From Methanosaeta sp. PtaU1.Bin060 (GTDB taxonomy: Archaea; Halobacteriota; Methanosarcinia; Methanotrichales; Methanotrichaceae): 44,290 nt of DNA. The stretch lies in the NCBI GenBank assembly GCA_002067365.1, contig MVRK01000002.1, forward strand, positions 1 through 44,290, written 5' to 3'. The notes beneath the pieces were generated by a model. The model had not been told where the DNA came from and made no database searches. It saw nothing but the letters and a program-made list of their open reading frames with translations. A program made the position numbers and the translations under genes. How positions within the stretch are numbered: position 1 is the first letter of the stretch; each line of letters begins with the position of its first letter. Shown one piece after another: positions 2,347 to 41,217 of the stretch.

Positions 2347-3143
2347 CTAACCGAAGACACATGATTTGCATTTAGCATAGGCCAAATTCATCTTTAAAAC
2401 TCCAAGGATGGCCCGCGTTGCCTTTTTTCATTGCTGCATCGTATCCTTTTGTCTTTGCTCCAGATTATCCTTTTTCAGCATATCGAACCTCTCCTTTATG
2501 GGCTAGATCTACTTGACTATCGTGAACATTGGCAGCTGTGGCCTCTATCCTCCCAACCAAGCCAAATTTCTCATTCATGGCATCATTCATCTTGTAACCG
2601 AAAAAAGACTTGGCTCCTTTTTTCTCTCATGCCCCATCTTTGCTTCGGCGGGTTCGGGCCTCATTGCCACGAGTTGTATTTGCTTTAGCATGGCCAAGAT
2701 CAGATGTTATGAAAGTGGCATCTTGCATGATTCCCTTTTTGCACTTTTAGGTTCATCGTATCAAGTTGCCTTTGCATCTCAGCCCATACTTCCTTGTCTG
2801 CACCGGTCTCGGCAAGACGTTCTCCGAATTTCCATATTGTTGTGGAATCAGGAACGACCTCTGTTGTGCCAAGGAACACTCTAAAAGAGATGCGATCAGC
2901 CAATTCGTGCTTAAGCTGCTCATCGGAGAGATTGTAAAGCTGTTGAATGACCAACGACTTTAGCATCACAACCACATCGAGGTTCGGTCGACCGCCGCGA
3001 TCCGTATTATTCTTGAACATGGCTTCAAGTTTTGGCCTGAAGCCTTCCCAATTTATTCTACTCCCAATCTCGACAAGTCTGTCTCCAAGCTTTTTAATGC
3101 GCTCATACTCTTGCAGAATAGCAAAATCGGTGAGGTTCCTCAT
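2347..3143 (-). pseudogene. IS5-family transposase, degenerate copy
   Basis: The first 137 residues from ATG 3143 match the transposase at 9050-9994 closely (RNLTDFA, GGRPNLDVVVMLKSL, ADRISFRVFLGTTE). The frame then shifts after KVQKG. The remaining DDE domain can be followed in another frame through TRRSKDGA, FFGYK and HDSQVDLA, with at least one internal stop. About 150 bases that should encode the SPVER glutamate region are deleted, leaving a short tail ending in TAG at 2347-2349. The gene cannot make active transposase. Confidence 0.85.
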
Positions 3144-3207
3144 TTATTGTATTATAATATTAATAATATTTAAATATTTTGATTTAACTAGGTTTTTCGG
3201 AATCCTC
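2347..3207 (-). mobile_element. Decayed IS5-family insertion sequence
   Basis: This is the body of the element carrying the broken transposase. Its transposase-proximal end is recognisable: TTTTTCGGAATCCTC at 3193-3207 is the reverse complement of an end very like that of the intact copy at 8986 (GAGAATTCCGAAAAA). The other end is not recognisable. The element faces opposite to the intact copy, so the two related elements flank the glycan genes as inverted copies. Confidence 0.7.
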
Positions 3208-8985: not shown

Positions 8986-10136
8986 GAGAATTCCGAAAAA
9001 TCTCATTTAATCGATAACTACAAATACTATTATTAGTATATAATAATGCATGAGAAACCTCACCGATTTTGCCCTTCGTCTGGAATACGAACGGGTCAAA
9101 GATCTTGGAGATAAGCTGGTCGATATTGGGAGTAGACTAAATTGGGAAAGCTTCAGACCGCCGCTTGAAGCTATGTACAGTAACAATACCGAATGCGGCG
9201 GCCGACCGAATCTCGATGTTATCGTGATGCTCAAGTCGCTTTTCCTTCAACAGCTTTACAGCCTATCCGATGAGCAGCTAGAACGCGAAATTGCCGATCG
9301 CATTTCGTTTAGAGTGTTTCTTGGGACAACGGAGACTGTTCCAGATTCCACAACGATATGGAAGTTTAGAGAACGCCTTGCTGAGAAAGGCGTAGACCAG
9401 AAAATATGGGCTGAAATGCAGCGGCAGCTTGATGCCATGAAACTCAAGGTGCAAAAAGGAATCATGCAGGATTCCACTTTCATAACATCGGATCCTGGCC
9501 ATGCTAAAGCAGATACTCCTCGTGGCGATGGAGCCAAGACCAGACGAAGTAAAGATGGAGCGTGGGCAAAGAAAGGAACCAAATCCTTCTTCGGCTACAA
9601 GCTGCATGATGCCATGGACGAAAAATTTGGTTTGGTTAGAAGGATCGAGGTCACAGCTGCCAATGTCCATGATAGTCAAGTAGATTTAGCAGAAGAAGGC
9701 GAAGTTCGATATGCAGATAAAGGATATTTCGGAGCCAAGACAAAAGGATATGACGCTGCCATGAAAAAGGCAACGCGGGGCCACCCTCTAAGTTACAAAG
9801 ATGAAATGCGCAACAAGCGGATCTCCAGCAAAAGATCGCCTGTTGAGAGGTTCTACGCTTTCATCAAGTGTGTCTGCAAGGCAGGGCATGTCGCTGTTAC
9901 CACGATTCCAAGGGTTAGAGTCAAGATGATAATCACAGGTATCGTTTTCAATGCTTATCATTTGGCCTCAGCCAAAAGCAAATTGGAGGCATAGCGTTAG
10001 CTGTCGAAAAAATATGGATAAACTGATGAAAATAATGGATACCGGAGGCGAGAACGGGGAAAATTAGAGCGAAAACGTCAAAATATTGACGGAGTTCGTT
10101 AGGGGGACCATCGACCCTAAGTTAATCGGAATCCTC
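8986..10136 (+). mobile_element. Intact IS5-family insertion sequence (copy A)
   Basis: The ends are GAGAATTCCGA (8986-8996) and TCGGAATCCTC (10126-10136), inverted repeats of 11 bases with one mismatch. One complete transposase gene lies between. No clear target duplication is seen: the bases flanking the ends differ. The left flank is host glycan DNA, and the right flank is the inside of an ArdC-like gene. A missing duplication together with unlike flanks suggests that recombination or deletion has occurred at this element since insertion. Confidence 0.85.
9050..9994 (+). CDS. IS5-family transposase (DDE)
   Basis: A 314-residue full-length transposase. It has the N-terminal DUF772-type region (GGRPNLDVIVMLKSLFLQQLY, DRISFRVFLGTT), then the DDE domain: DSTFI aspartate near residue 143, DKGYFGAK aspartate near residue 224, and the SPVERFYAFIK glutamate near residue 264. 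The basic TRRSKDGAWAKKG segment is typical. It starts at ATG 9050 with a very short leader behind an AT-rich TATA-like stretch (AGTATATAATA), so it is probably leaderless or nearly so. It ends in TAG. Confidence 0.92.
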   Translation: MRNLTDFALRLEYERVKDLGDKLVDIGSRLNWESFRPPLEAMYSNNTECGGRPNLDVIVMLKSLFLQQLYSLSDEQLEREIADRISFRVFLGTTETVPDSTTIWKFRERLAEKGVDQKIWAEMQRQLDAMKLKVQKGIMQDSTFITSDPGHAKADTPRGDGAKTRRSKDGAWAKKGTKSFFGYKLHDAMDEKFGLVRRIEVTAANVHDSQVDLAEEGEVRYADKGYFGAKTKGYDAAMKKATRGHPLSYKDEMRNKRISSKRSPVERFYAFIKCVCKAGHVAVTTIPRVRVKMIITGIVFNAYHLASAKSKLEA

Positions 10137-12050: not shown

Positions 12051-12069
12051 GGATTAAACTAAGCGGTTT

Positions 12070-12170
12070 AGATTATTCAGGTTTATCTGTTAACTCTTCA
12101 GTATGAGGTTAAGACTGAAGAGTTAAATCTTCAGAAGATTCAGGTTTGACTCTTAAGTTACTTCGCCTCA
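12070..12170 (-). repeat. Decayed copy of the TTAAG-repeat segment of the 39.2-40.2 kb gene
   Basis: About 90 bases here (CAGG-TTATCT-TTAACTCTTCAG, then GAGTTAAATCTTCAGAAG, then TTCAGGTTT and CTAAGTTAC-like words) align with 39867-39955 inside the ParA partner gene, at roughly 80% identity by eye and in the same orientation. In this copy the reading frame is broken by several stops. It is therefore either a remnant of a paralogous gene or a DNA site whose sequence itself matters. Confidence 0.65.
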
Positions 12171-28115: not shown

Positions 28116-30143
28116 TTATTGGATAATATTTACTGGCCTGAAGTACTCCCTCCTGAACAGCGCCCCCTCCCGGCGGATGGGCGTCTGCTGGTACTCCGAG
28201 AGCCAGTTGTAGGGCCCGATGTCCTCTTTGATGGCCATTAAAGATGGCAGAGGATACCTCTCCGGCCAGAGAGCCTCTCCAGGCTGACGGCCCAGAGGAT
28301 CGTCCGGCTCGGCGATGGCCGGGAGCCGGTACTCGACCCAGGGAGGAGAATACCTCTGCCCGCCACCGGCTTCGGCGTCCACCTTGCGAGCTAAAAGCCG
28401 GCCAGTGAAATCATCCACATGCCAGCGGGTGGCCATGACTATCGCCACACCGAAAGGCGCCCAGGGCATTGGCTCCAAACGTTCACGGGCCGTGCCGGTC
28501 CACCAGTCCCAGACCTTCTCACGCATGGTCAGTGACTCGGCCTCGGCCCGGTCCTTGTGGGGATCATCTATGATGAGACAGTTGTGGGTGAGAACCTCTT
28601 CCGCAAAGAAATTGTTGCAGCCTTCCACCTGGAAGTCATAGACAGGGATTTCTCCACAGCGTAACTCCCGAACCACAGATATGGGGTCGATTTTGATTTG
28701 TGATGAATCATATGGCAGGGTTGACAAAGAGTTACAAGATTCTCGGGTGTATTGTCCAGCACAGCCTCGTTCAAATGGTGGATGACGAGATTCGACCTTT
28801 GCACATCCTGTCCGTTCCAGGTTATCCGAGTGAAGGCCTCCTGCAGTCCACAGACGACACACTTGTGGCCGTCCCGCTCCAGGATCAAAGGTCTCATTTG
28901 GGTGAACCACATTGCATAGCTCATCCCGTCCTGATAGTGAGAGTTTCCAAGTCCAACCATCCTCTCGGAATGGGCAGCGCTCGCACATTCCCGAGAGCAG
29001 AACTGGGCACGGGAAGAGCGAGGAATAAACTCTGCCTCGCAAATCGGGCAGATTTTCACTGGCCTTTTGGATAGCCTGGAAGCTGTACGACAGGTTTCTG
29101 AGCAATACTTGTTCCGGCGCTTCCCAGGCATTGGTTGGCCGCAATAGGTGCAGGATCTCGCATGCTTCACAGCATGATGCTTTTGAGAGCATGCCTTGGA
29201 GCAATAGAAGTCTTCTTGACCTCGATTCAGCGCTTTGCGGTAATCGTATAGGTATTTCTCGTGCTCCTTTCCGCAGAGAGTACAACGAAGAACTACCCGG
29301 ATCGACCGGAGCTTTTGATAGCAAGCTAGGCAAAGTAAGCCGTTGCCTCCCTTCGGATTCCCACAACGAACGCAGATCTTGTTGGACTTGGACTTCTGAG
29401 CTGATAAGCCGGTCGCCTGGCCGTAGACTATTCGCTTCTTGGTAGCCTCGTTCACAAGTGAAAAAACGATGCTCAGGGGTAGCTCTGACTTTATGGCCAC
29501 TAGCTGTTTCGATTTCAAGTAGTCTATTGCCATAGGTCACCCTTGCGGCGAGGATCTTCCTCCACTCAAAAAGATTCGACCGATGATTAAAGGCCAGAAC
29601 CCGAGGACGCAGTGGCATCTTCACTAAATCCTCAATTGGGATCTTACCCTTTTCAGTAGTTATGAGGGTCTTTCTATATAAACACTGTGCACCTTTTCCA
29701 GTTACCGCTCCCTGAGTTCCCACGGCGTTCATCCCGCCGCCCTCAGTTGTATCCCAGCGGTCGGCTGCCGAGGAGTCCCCTGAGATCTCGACCCTTAGCT
29801 CTGAAGGGTGCTCCTGGATGGTGTTGCGAACTTTGCGGCCCCAGCTGGCGGCATAGTCGGACTCGTATGAGGCCAGGATGACCCGGTACTGGGGGAAGAG
29901 GTCGAGAAACCAGACCGGAAACCAGTGAGACACAAGGGCCGACTTTCCATGCCGAGGTGGCATGCTGATAATCAGCCTGGGATACCGGCCGGCTACCGCC
30001 TGGGTTAAGAGAAAGGAAAGCTCACGAAGATGGCGGTAAAGCCTCCACCTCCGGCCCGAAAGCCTCTGGGCAAACGTCCCCGGCGTGGCTCTCCAGGCGT
30101 TCTGCCAGAGTTGCTGCGAGTCTAACGGCTTCAGGGTCGGCAA
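28116..30143 (-). CDS. terL: Large terminase ATPase domain, interrupted by an intein
   Basis: A 675-codon frame. Exteins: residues 1-153 with the packaging ATPase Walker A MPPRHGKSALVSHWF (residue 61) and residues 522-675 with Walker B CLIIDDPHKDRAEA, the coupling motif IVMATRWHVDDF and the end EYQQTPIRREGALFRREYF. The intein is residues 154-521. After splicing the ATPase would read GKGAQ-CLIIDDP. The frame ends in PVNIIQ-stop, exactly where the nuclease domain should follow; that domain is a separate gene at 25533-26114. The start is TTG 30143, overlapping the small terminase gene by 122 bases. It powers DNA packaging at the portal. Confidence 0.9.
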   Translation of the reverse strand: MPTLKPLDSQQLWQNAWRATPGTFAQRLSGRRWRLYRHLRELSFLLTQAVAGRYPRLIISMPPRHGKSALVSHWFPVWFLDLFPQYRVILASYESDYAASWGRKVRNTIQEHPSELRVEISGDSSAADRWDTTEGGGMNAVGTQGAVTGKGAQCLYRKTLITTEKGKIPIEDLVKMPLRPRVLAFNHRSNLFEWRKILAARVTYGNRLLEIETASGHKVRATPEHRFFTCERGYQEANSLRPGDRLISSEVQVQQDLRSLWESEGRQRLTLPSLLSKAPVDPGSSSLYSLRKGAREIPIRLPQSAESRSRRLLLLQGMLSKASCCEACEILHLLRPTNAWEAPEQVLLRNLSYSFQAIQKASENLPDLRGRVYSSLFPCPVLLSGMCERCPFREDGWTWKLSLSGRDELCNVVHPNETFDPGAGRPQVCRLWTAGGLHSDNLERTGCAKVESRHPPFERGCAGQYTRESCNSLSTLPYDSSQIKIDPISVVRELRCGEIPVYDFQVEGCNNFFAEEVLTHNCLIIDDPHKDRAEAESLTMREKVWDWWTGTARERLEPMPWAPFGVAIVMATRWHVDDFTGRLLARKVDAEAGGGQRYSPPWVEYRLPAIAEPDDPLGRQPGEALWPERYPLPSLMAIKEDIGPYNWLSEYQQTPIRREGALFRREYFRPVNIIQ
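28568..29533 (-). CDS. HNH homing endonuclease with zinc fingers, in the +1 frame inside the intein
   Basis: From about residue 45 the frame reads as a real protein: five CxxC-type zinc modules (CVRCGNPKGG, CTLCGKEHEKYLY, CTYCGQPMPGKRRNKYC, CPICEAEFIPRSSRAQFC) and a C-terminal HNH domain (ILERDGHKCVVCG, NLVIHHLNEAVLDNTPENLV, TLCQPCHMIHHK). This is a nicking/homing nuclease of the type found in introns and inteins. The recognisable part spans about 28694-29413, exactly between the two intein splicing halves, which are in another frame. The first 40 residues overlap block B codons and may not be translated. How it is expressed is unclear: internal start, frameshift or decay. Confidence 0.8.
   Translation of the reverse strand: MAIDYLKSKQLVAIKSELPLSIVFSLVNEATKKRIVYGQATGLSAQKSKSNKICVRCGNPKGGNGLLCLACYQKLRSIRVVLRCTLCGKEHEKYLYDYRKALNRGQEDFYCSKACSQKHHAVKHARSCTYCGQPMPGKRRNKYCSETCRTASRLSKRPVKICPICEAEFIPRSSRAQFCSRECASAAHSERMVGLGNSHYQDGMSYAMWFTQMRPLILERDGHKCVVCGLQEAFTRITWNGQDVQRSNLVIHHLNEAVLDNTPENLVTLCQPCHMIHHKSKSTPYLWFGSYAVEKSLSMTSRWKAATISLRKRFSPTTVSS
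28581..29684 (-). mobile_element. Intein in the terminase Walker B site (368 codons)
   Basis: It begins with Cys154 (CLYRKTLITTEKGKIPIEDL, block A), has block B GHKVRATPEHRFF with the TxxH-type TPEH motif, and ends with block F/G EIPVYDFQVEGCNNFFAEEV-LTHN. The +1 extein residue is Cys522. These are all the residues needed for protein splicing. The middle, residues about 250-480, has no recognisable domain in this frame. In the +1 frame the same DNA codes for a zinc-finger HNH endonuclease. The insertion point is the catalytic Walker B segment, a favoured site for inteins. Confidence 0.9.
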
Positions 30144-38766: not shown

Positions 38767-39174
38767 TTAAAATTTGACGTCCACCTCTACCACCTGCGCC
38801 CCCATTCTTTGCGCCTCTTCAACCGCAGCCATATCCTTCATGAGGAATATACGTTTATCGAGGGTTTCGATATGAGCTACGGAGTTCTTCAGCACAGGGG
38901 CGTACTTGCTGTACTTGGGCAGCTTAACCACATATCCCTTCAGGTCCTCCACCAAGTCGATATCAAAGCCCCTTCTCTCCAGAAGCTTTAGGGCCTTGTT
39001 CCTCTCACCTATGGTATTGAATTCAAAGCGGTAGGAGTCCTTGTTGTAGTAATCGGCCAGCTCCTGGAATGTCTCCTTGTCGTCGAAGAAGTACTTGAAG
39101 ATCCAGTGTTTCCCCACTTTGAACATGGTGATGCGCCGGCGCTTTTCAGTCACGTCAAAGGTATTGGGCTGCAT
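38767..39174 (-). CDS. Conserved archaeal protein of unknown function (135 aa)
   Basis: The core FKVGKHWIFKYFFDDKETFQ, then ELADYYNKDSYRFEFNTIGE, RGFDIDLVEDLKGYVVKLPK and IFLMKDMAAVEEAQRMGAQV looks like a conserved methanogen chromosomal protein; I do not know a function. The real start may be ATG 39126, just before that core. Composition is closer to the host than to the virus, which suggests that the viral block has ended by here. Confidence 0.6.
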   Translation of the reverse strand: MQPNTFDVTEKRRRITMFKVGKHWIFKYFFDDKETFQELADYYNKDSYRFEFNTIGERNKALKLLERRGFDIDLVEDLKGYVVKLPKYSKYAPVLKNSVAHIETLDKRIFLMKDMAAVEEAQRMGAQVVEVDVKF

Positions 39175-39245: not shown

Positions 39246-40214
39246 TCAAACAGCCCTCATTTTCTCTCTCAGTGCTTGGGATAATCCTGGATACTTTCTC
39301 GCCACCGCCTCATCCAGCAGAGAGCTGGCCTCCTGGCTCATTGAGAACTCTGGCATGGTCTTGCGCAGGTATTTGAAGACGGCATAGGCATAAGGTGACC
39401 AGACTGTGAGCTTTGGGTTCTTCATAGCTTCTATAGCTGCTCGATTCAAAATATCCATATCGAAATTGCCGCTGTTCGATTCGTTTGCTTCAGGTCGAGC
39501 CGTTCCCCTCTCGAATGCCAAATTCCTGGCCAGCTCAGGATATTTTCTTGCTACGGAATCTTCCAGCAACAATCGGGCATCGTCGCTTATTGAGAACTCC
39601 GGGATGGTCTTTTTATTGTACTTCAAAACTGCTGACGATATTGGTGAATAGATACCTATTCTCGGATTCCGCCTAGCGTCCTCGATGGCGGATTCCATTG
39701 CCTTCTCATTAAGACTTAAACCTCTTAAGTATTCAGGTTTTTCTGTGGTTAAGACTTTAGAGTCTTTACTTATCACTTCAGACTTAAGACTTAGTTCTGG
39801 AGTGTGTCCTGTCTTAACTCTTAAGTCGCCCTCTTCATTCTCTGAAGTTAAGTCTTGAGATTCTCCAGGCTTATCTATTAACTCTTCAGTCTTAACTTCA
39901 GACTTAAGAGTTAAATCTTCAGAAGGTTCAGGTTTAATTCCTAAGTTACCCTCTTTAGCCTCTTGACTAAAGACTTTAGTTTCTTTAGGTTTATCTATTA
40001 AGTCTTCAGTTTTTCCTTTAGACTTAATACTTAACTCTTCAGATAATTCAGCCTTAACTTTAGAATCGGCCTCTTTAGCCTCTGAACTTAATACTTCATA
40101 CTCTTTAGTCTTAACTATTAAGTTATTACTTAAACCATTTAAGTCGCCCCATTCCTCAGCATCTTCAGAGAACAGGTCCTCTGCCTTATCTCCCAGAGCC
40201 TTCTTGACGGTCAT
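39246..40214 (-). CDS. ParA partner protein with acidic repeats and a tandem C-terminal domain (322 aa)
   Basis: Translationally coupled to ParA by a TAATG overlap, so it is the likely ParB-like partner, though no ParB motif is present. Residues about 30-165 are acidic repeats of 38-42 residues (SEELSIKSKGKTEDLIDKP, SEDLTLKSEVKTEELIDKP and a third). Residues 170-230 and 255-315 are two copies of one domain: IYSPISSAVLKYNKKTIPEF-SISDDARLLLEDSVARKYPE and VWSPYAYAVFKYLRKTMPEF-SMSQEASSLLDEAVARKYPG. Their helix pattern resembles an archaeal histone fold (S-D-D-A-R before a long helix), which is only a suggestion. Function by context is DNA segregation. Confidence 0.7.
   Translation of the reverse strand: MTVKKALGDKAEDLFSEDAEEWGDLNGLSNNLIVKTKEYEVLSSEAKEADSKVKAELSEELSIKSKGKTEDLIDKPKETKVFSQEAKEGNLGIKPEPSEDLTLKSEVKTEELIDKPGESQDLTSENEEGDLRVKTGHTPELSLKSEVISKDSKVLTTEKPEYLRGLSLNEKAMESAIEDARRNPRIGIYSPISSAVLKYNKKTIPEFSISDDARLLLEDSVARKYPELARNLAFERGTARPEANESNSGNFDMDILNRAAIEAMKNPKLTVWSPYAYAVFKYLRKTMPEFSMSQEASSLLDEAVARKYPGLSQALREKMRAV
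39720..40140. repeat. TTAAG-type DNA repeats inside the ParA partner gene
   Basis: The acidic repeat region is coded by DNA crowded with CTTAAG/TTAACT words. The 13-mer ACTTAAGAGTTAA occurs at 39902-39914 and inverted at 39814-39826, and the same 13-mer recurs upstream of ParA at 40978-40990. Close variants (GACTTAAGACTTAG at 39781, TTAAGTCTTCAG at several places) follow. The clustering seems stronger than protein repeats alone need, so the DNA may be a binding site. Confidence 0.6.
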
Positions 40215-40963
40215 TATCCGATCACCTCATTGGCCAGTTGTTCGTAAGCCAAGGCTCCTGGAGAATCAGGCTCGTGCAGGGAGATGGGTTTGCCGTGGCT
40301 GGGGGCTTCGGCCAACTTCACGCTTCGGGGTATGATCGTCTTGTAGACCTCATCCTTGAAGTGTCCTCTCACCTGCTCAGCCACCTCTTTGCTGAGGTTG
40401 GTCCTGGCATCGTACATGGTCAATAGATAGCGCCGTTTTATGCTACTGCCTAGGAGCCTCTCCTCTACCATTTTGATGATCTTCAGGAGCTGGCTCATGC
40501 CCTCCATGGCAAAGTACTCGGTCTGCACGGGGATTATCAGGGTGTTGCAGGCCACGAGGGAGTTAAGTGTGAGTATGCCCAGGCTTGGCGGGGTGTCGAT
40601 AAGGATGTAGTCATAGCCGTTGAGTGCCTTCAGCTTCATCTTGATGATGGTCTCTCTTCCTGGTTGGCTAACCAGTCCCTGTTCGGCAGCAGAGAGATTC
40701 ATGTTGGCAGGGGCGATGTCTAGGCCGGGAGCGACCTCGGTAATGATGATCTCGGCCAATTCCAGGTCGTCCACCATGACGTTGTATATCGTTTTGTCCA
40801 GCTTTCTCTTCTTCACGCCCAAACTGGTGGTGGCAGCTCCCTGGGGGTCTAAATCAATTAGAAGCGTTCGCCTCCCTTTCTGAGCGAGATAGGCTGATAG
40901 GTTGACTGCAGTTGTCGTTTTCCCGCAGCCACCCTTCTGGTTCGCTACAGATATTACCTCCAT
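40214..40963 (-). CDS. parA: ParA/Soj-type partition ATPase (249 aa)
   Basis: The deviant Walker A KGGCGKTTTAVNLSAYLAQK (residue 10), the switch ALNGYDYILIDTPPSLGILT with Walker B-like Asp, and VQTEYFAMEGMSQLL define a Soj/ParA ATPase. Length is typical of chromosomal or plasmid ParA without an N-terminal DNA-binding domain. It forms ATP-dependent dimers on DNA and moves the partner-bound site. ATG 40963 follows an array of TTAAG repeats without a clear ribosome site, so the mRNA may be short-leadered. It is first in an operon with the partner gene. Confidence 0.92.
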   Translation of the reverse strand: MEVISVANQKGGCGKTTTAVNLSAYLAQKGRRTLLIDLDPQGAATTSLGVKKRKLDKTIYNVMVDDLELAEIIITEVAPGLDIAPANMNLSAAEQGLVSQPGRETIIKMKLKALNGYDYILIDTPPSLGILTLNSLVACNTLIIPVQTEYFAMEGMSQLLKIIKMVEERLLGSSIKRRYLLTMYDARTNLSKEVAEQVRGHFKDEVYKTIIPRSVKLAEAPSHGKPISLHEPDSPGALAYEQLANEVIG

Positions 40964-40965
40964 GG

Positions 40966-41075
40966 TATTAAGTGATGACTTAAGAGTTAATAGGCTTAAC
41001 TATTAACTGATCTCTCTAGGTCTTAAGACTTAAAACTTAATAGTTAAGAATGGTAAGTATTAACTGTAGGGTCTT
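40966..41075. promoter_or_regulatory. TTAAG repeat array upstream of parA (operator or centromere-like site)
   Basis: ACTTAAGAGTTAA (40978-40990), CTTAACTATTAA (40995-41006), TCTTAAGACTTAA (41021-41033) and ACTTAATAGTTAA (41035-41047) follow one another with few bases between, then TATTAACT. They share the 13-mer found in the partner gene. An array right before parA is a good candidate for the partner's binding site and autoregulatory operator. Confidence 0.6.
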
Positions 41076-41217
41076 AATTCTATCCGCTATAGTAGCTGGC
41101 GATTTGCTGTCCCTTCAGATAGAATTCGAGGATAACGCGGGCAATTATACCACCTCCCTTGCGAGATCTTCCTGGGAGCTTTGCCAAAGCTTTCGGCCGT
41201 CTCTGCGGCAAGATTGT

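Follow-up and report, generated by a model that had tools for sequence, protein, structure and literature searches.

The stretch of DNA analysed here (the window, 44,290 nt of a Methanosaeta sp. contig) carries a ParA ATPase gene, parA/segA, directly upstream of the gene for its partner protein, segB, the stop of the former overlapping the start of the latter by one base (TAATG). The coordinates of both genes, of the partner's domains and of the DNA arrays are given in Table 1. Pfam AAA_31 matched the ATPase at 4.8e-60, and comparison with the PDB placed it nearer to bacterial Soj (1wcv, 4e-59) than to SegA of the Sulfolobales (7dut, 1.9e-20). The neighbour gene beyond segB is a member of a shared module and lies outside the mechanism considered below.

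Table 1. Features of the parA-segB locus and of its detached copy in the window
Feature	Position	Strand	Residues	Description
parA/segA	40214..40963	-		249-aa Walker-type ParA ATPase, Soj-like (Pfam and PDB matches)
segB	39246..40214	-		322-aa partner: N-terminal peptide, ~150-aa low-confidence linker, two ribbon-helix-helix domains
N-terminal peptide MTVKKALGDKAEDLFS	40167..40214	-		At the position of the relatives' LG[KR]GxxAL(F/I) peptide; putative ParA-activating tail
First SegB ribbon-helix-helix domain	39510..39665	-	184-235	HMM positions; AlphaFold pLDDT about 93
Second SegB ribbon-helix-helix domain	39255..39416	-	267-320	
Upstream heptad array	40966..41080	.		11 TTAA cores, abuts parA start; putative operator and centromere
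In-gene heptad array	39709..40145	.		22 TTAA cores, many spaced 7 bp, both orientations; also encodes SegB linker
Neighbour gene	38767..39174	-		Beside the operon also in genome G003 (L022:5921-6433)
Detached non-coding copy of in-gene array	12067..12161	.		80/95 bases (84%) identical to 39855-39949; 3 sites at <=1 mismatch

Searches of the partner protein against Pfam and NCBIfam gave nothing at E<=1, and the nuclease-like and helix-turn-helix domains of canonical ParB are absent. A profile of its C-terminal repeat matched SegB of S. solfataricus (7dv2/7duv) with E=2.4e-13, the window sequence alone reached SegB by phmmer at 7e-6, and SegB was the sole match among solved structures searched by sequence. 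On these matches the two C-terminal domains are assigned as SegB ribbon-helix-helix (RHH) domains. The original prediction had raised an undescribed archaeal partition type; a new type was not supported in view of the profile match, the partner being a SegB-family RHH protein behind a Soj-like ParA. A histone fold for the C-terminal repeat was likewise discarded, given the SegB match and the RHH model. The earlier statement that the partner has no ParB motif holds for the ParB domain but not for the family's N-terminus, as many relatives (L023, L027, L028, L076, L077 and L147-L151) begin with an LG[KR]GxxAL(I/F) peptide, of which the window protein has a decayed version, ALGDKAEDLF. We take this peptide to resemble the ParA-activating N-terminal start of bacterial ParB, and its presence on an RHH protein of a different fold fits the Soj-like ParA.

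AlphaFold modelled the C-terminal domain pair as helix-strand-helix-helix twice over, with a mean pLDDT of 89.6, and the two RHH domains may pair within one chain, an arrangement with which the model is compatible. Foldseek gave no significant match to this model in the PDB, the best being a weak one to a protein of the F-plasmid relaxosome (E=0.4, probability 0.92). Two RHH domains per chain were found in the window, L022 and L023 and one in most relatives; the two-RHH chain is a variant inside the SegB family, unlike the usual dimer of one-RHH chains. Residues 1-168 were modelled at pLDDT <50 with no strands and no beta-helix, but since the full-length model is poor overall this argues weakly against a fold in the linker.

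Heptad arrays upstream of parA and within segB

The 13-mer ACTTAAGAGTTAA of the original prediction was located at all three sites claimed for it, upstream of parA (40978-40990, +), inside the partner gene (39902-39914, +) and inverted there (39814-39826, -), and these are its only exact copies in the 2.78 Mb source genome. Its many variants were also recovered: with <=2 mismatches allowed, the window held 20 matches (1.15 expected), a number reached in 0 of 100 shuffles. The sequence ASTTAAGASTTAA, at <=1 mismatch, matched the genome 23 times, with 19 matches on this contig, 16 of them at the operon and 3 at 12.09-12.16 kb. Apart from the small copy near 12 kb, no other word cluster was found in the genome.

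The 13-mer is not itself the repeat unit but a sample of an array with a 7-bp period. The unit is the word ASTTAAR (S = C/G), in both orientations, upstream of parA and over the first 165 codons of segB. Base autocorrelation of the linker coding region was 0.42 at lag 7 (z +4.9) and was raised again at lags 14 (z +3.4) and 21 (z +3.5), adjacent lags being flat, and the lag-7 period is present both upstream and in the gene. The array units are strongly diverged in the window (73% over 229 bp), with the heptad core retained.

Word sharing was measured as the number of 9-mers (<=1 mismatch, both strands) that the 200 bp before parA have in common with the DNA coding for the linker, and was compared with permutations of synonymous codons that preserve the protein and the codon counts. 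The window gave 386 against 138.9 +/- 28.6 in the permutations, none of 20,000 being as high, a comparison in which selection is not fully separable from recent copying of array units at the DNA level. Such copying can inflate shuffle tests, and homogenisation of this kind is seen in segB of G003, which contains a 99-bp repeat and has a broken frame; at L022:7843-9395 this gene lies in two frames within the repeat, through a misassembly or a recent frameshift. The segA coding region, used as a control, had no excess of upstream words (p=0.46), and neither word sharing nor a 7-bp period was seen in 26 other window genes (maximum lag-7 z 2.2). Downstream of the linker segB had a small excess (p=0.003), which may arise because some words run past the linker cut-off. 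By these counts, codon choice in the window linker favours the upstream words beyond protein need.

The 7-bp period runs independently of the reading frame, so that the array crosses all three frames, in one of which ASTTAAR is a stop. In the window linker none of the 20 TTAA cores lies in the stop phase. Variants that differ by one base at the stop triplet (TGAA, TAAA and others) number 29 in that phase and 6 in the remaining two. These counts indicate that words stay intact wherever translation allows and carry a single-base change where a stop would arise. L022 has the same pattern, and operons with CTAG and CATGA words have analogous, less clean changes. One word read in three frames gives different peptides; as 7 bp is not divisible by three and the window units are diverged, protein-level duplication cannot yield the pattern. 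The earlier proposal that the acidic protein repeats and a DNA site are written in the same bases is strongly supported.

Co-varying words in related operons

Twenty-four operons in which a SegB gene comes after a ParA gene were collected from searches for relatives and from one genome-contig and one viral-contig scan. In most of them the region before parA and the linker-coding part of segB share words, and the words vary between operons. Sharing exceeded synonymous shuffles (p <=0.02) in 18 of the 24, and in 17 of the 19 outside the Sulfolobales, although several of the 18 are closely related and make fewer than 18 independent cases; it was below significance in L023, L150, L061, L062, L065 and L066. 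Two points put forward in the original prediction are answered by this set. Codon choice in relatives keeps words beyond protein need in those 18 operons, and relatives, rather than keeping the protein repeats without the DNA words, change the word, the upstream and in-gene words changing together, an outcome that favours the proposal of shared bases.

The most frequent heptad, derived separately upstream and in the gene, was the same on both sides in the window (ASTTAAG), L024 and L026 (ASTCTAG), L025 (ASTCATG), L027/L028 (ASTTCGT), L067 (ASTCCTG) and L148 (ASTTATC). When 20 upstream regions were compared with 20 linkers, matches generally fell to the region's own linker or to one from its word class (z 8 to 11 in the best cases), and z was near zero for most unrelated word classes. 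With some upstream regions the linker of a related operon gave the better fit; the agreement is thus at class level and not one-to-one.

ChIP-seq of S. solfataricus SegB has yielded the motif TCTAGASTCTAGA (PMC12284271). In G017 (3.4 Mb) this motif has three exact copies, and all belong to the L024 operon, where two precede parA and the third is within segB. At <=1 mismatch 11 distinct sites were found, 10 of which are in or beside the same operon, 7 of them inside segB. This clustering links the in-gene words to an experimentally known SegB site. The Sulfolobales themselves were mixed, with an excess of motif sites in L063 and L066, a motif-like site present 13 times in L064, and none in L061, L062 and L065. 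The 14-aa unit of Metallosphaera javensis was tried as a heptad array and rejected, as it exceeded randomly chosen synonymous codons (p=0.001) but did no better than permutations of its own codons (p=0.51).

Multiple segAB-like systems were found in single genomes, L024, L028, L029 and L030 in G017 and L025 and L026 in G001, mostly with different words, as would be expected if the words set partition incompatibility. Position 3 of the RHH beta-strand seems to follow the word, being Gly with CTAG, Ser with CATG, CCTG or AATT, Thr with TTAAG or TTCGT and Val with TTATC, and is a possible specificity code. SegB-like RHH proteins with no adjoining ParA gene, some with two RHH domains, were seen at L069 and L072 (also L070, L071 and L073-L075), and these are possibly regulators derived from SegB.

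Proposed mechanism, known systems and alternatives

We propose, with a probability of about 0.78, that the operon encodes a ParA-SegB partition system with a centromere/operator array embedded in the segB linker and co-evolving with SegB specificity. The RHH domains of SegB would bind arrays of 7-bp words, one at the parA promoter and a longer one inside segB, the latter doubling as coding sequence for the linker that joins the ParA-binding tail to the DNA-binding domains. Array-bound SegB would form the partition complex and repress the operon, and the N-terminal tail would activate nucleoid-bound ParA, as in the delta-omega plasmid system. The words in both arrays would change together because one SegB must read both as its specificity shifts, and coding constraint would confine word changes almost wholly to places where the word would create an in-frame stop. 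We infer binding by the window SegB, centromere and operator function and ParA activation; the sequences provide SegB homology, the heptad period, word excess, the stop-phase pattern, co-variation and, in the operon of one relative, an enrichment of the experimental motif. The same DNA very probably spells both a flexible protein linker and docking sites for SegB. Functional sites within segB are likely, and a centromere role for the arrays is favoured with less confidence.

The SegAB systems of Saccharolobus solfataricus and Sulfolobus acidocaldarius share with the window the SegB RHH domain and the segA-segB overlap; their sites are just upstream of segA, where the window has a site-like array. 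The known SegAB site TCTAGASTCTAGA is, like the window words, made of 7-bp units, being 13 bp with a central S and consisting of two half units, and in S. acidocaldarius SegB sites inside segAB have already been reported (PMC12284271). The window differs from these two systems in its two RHH domains, its long linker made of the site array, its TTAAG-type words and a ParA nearer to Soj; its word sites concentrate at one locus, whereas SegB sites there are scattered along the chromosome. In our literature search, which was incomplete, no paper was found joining SegB sites within segAB to SegB protein repeats. What sets the window apart is the site array composing the adaptor's own linker, an arrangement with a known parallel in phage lambda gene O; the SegB family and RHH heptad arrays are already known.

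Phage lambda gene O contains ori-lambda, with its four iterons, and encodes a two-domain product with a flexible linker (PMC6022878). As in the window (there putatively), the sites of a DNA-binding protein lie inside its own gene, at the linker, but lambda O is a replication initiator with no partition role, and its sites are not known to vary together with any upstream array. B. subtilis also has a partition site inside its binder's gene, parS in spo0J, but this is one 16-bp site within conserved coding sequence and forms no linker array.

The delta-omega system of pSM19035 likewise pairs a ParA with an RHH adaptor, has contiguous 7-bp words in both orientations at promoters, with one RHH dimer per heptad, and uses the same heptads as operator and centromere (PMC9499535). 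The window resembles it in the ParA and RHH adaptor and in contiguous 7-bp word arrays adjoining the operon, but the delta-omega arrays, of the word WATCACW, are in promoters and absent from the adaptor gene, whereas the window array is also within segB. This dual role of the omega heptads bears on the alternative that the arrays are operators only, serving autoregulation by upstream repression and an in-gene roadblock while partition uses other sites. The upstream array does abut the parA start, and autorepression is general among RHH partition proteins (PMC9499535); however, the genome offers no further word cluster besides the small 12-kb copy, and we consider this alternative unlikely.

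Still less likely is neutral expansion of tandem repeats, in which slippage or gene conversion would have carried upstream DNA into the gene with no function there, as suggested for Borg repeats. Borg elements, which are archaeal extrachromosomal DNA, have rapidly evolving in-frame gene repeats with units divisible by three, with neither proposed binding sites nor a tie to partition genes (PMC9879509), and their tandem-repeat proteins are like the window in that archaeal DNA repeats give disordered protein regions; the homogenised repeat in segB of G003 points the same way. The window unit, however, is 7 bp, word types vary by operon yet agree between upstream DNA and gene across an intervening segA that has no such sharing, and the window units have diverged while keeping the heptad core. 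The least probable alternative, that the repeats serve the protein as a beta-helix or extended spacer and the DNA words merely follow the amino acids, as proposed for large Metallosphaera SegB from AlphaFold beta-helix models of its 14-aa repeats (PMC12284271), draws on the Sulfolobales segB linkers that have no word excess, but is opposed by the synonymous preference for words (0/20,000), by a 7-bp period at lags 7 and 14 that is impossible from protein repeats, by one word giving different peptides in three frames and recurring in non-coding upstream DNA, and by a window linker modelled without confidence and lacking the confident beta-helix of the Metallosphaera type in a model that is poor overall.

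At least in the archaeal family of the window and in related elements, the SegB repeats are better explained as arrays of binding sites that the ribosome also translates. This account sets a DNA-level reading beside the published one of a protein fold, and the Sulfolobales evidence on it is mixed. It would be a clear case, in a partition system, of two codes on one sequence, and archaeal centromeres would gain a sequence signature predictable from the operon alone. We give even odds to the wider generalization that SegB linkers are DNA-encoded across archaea, the adaptor gene being the centromere, selection on sites shaping the linker, specificity and both arrays changing together and each element having a partition address; such an address of its own would avoid incompatibility between co-resident elements. 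Co-resident systems with different words are natural sets for the study of RHH-DNA specificity and incompatibility.

The detached copy and the mobile-element context

The copy of the array that had been placed, as a decayed one, in non-coding DNA near 12.07-12.17 kb was confirmed as a related segment with no open frame (Table 1). Its site number is slightly above that expected from random decay (p = 0.04); this is marginal support for functional retention, and that possibility was set aside.

A viral-contig scan with the RHH segment as sole query gave no matches, and a scan with ParA gave four further segAB-like operons. These viral-contig records suggest that mobile elements carry segAB-like operons, and the window operon is probably on a mobile or integrated element. 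In G003 the neighbour gene recurs next to the operon; terminase matches sit on a different contig. Between 10 and 31 kb the window has genes for a tailed-virus major head protein, portal and terminase (20-30 kb) and an anti-restriction-like gene, indicating a provirus beside or including the operon. The terminase large subunit gene (28116-30143, -) is split by an intein-like segment, with PHROG matches to residues 27-155 and 523-670, and is overlapped in another frame by a second long open frame (28568-29533, -) containing an HNH-like endonuclease. Inverted copies of a transposase gene (2387-3207 and 8986-9805; 79% identical over 822 bp) lie around glycan and membrane genes.
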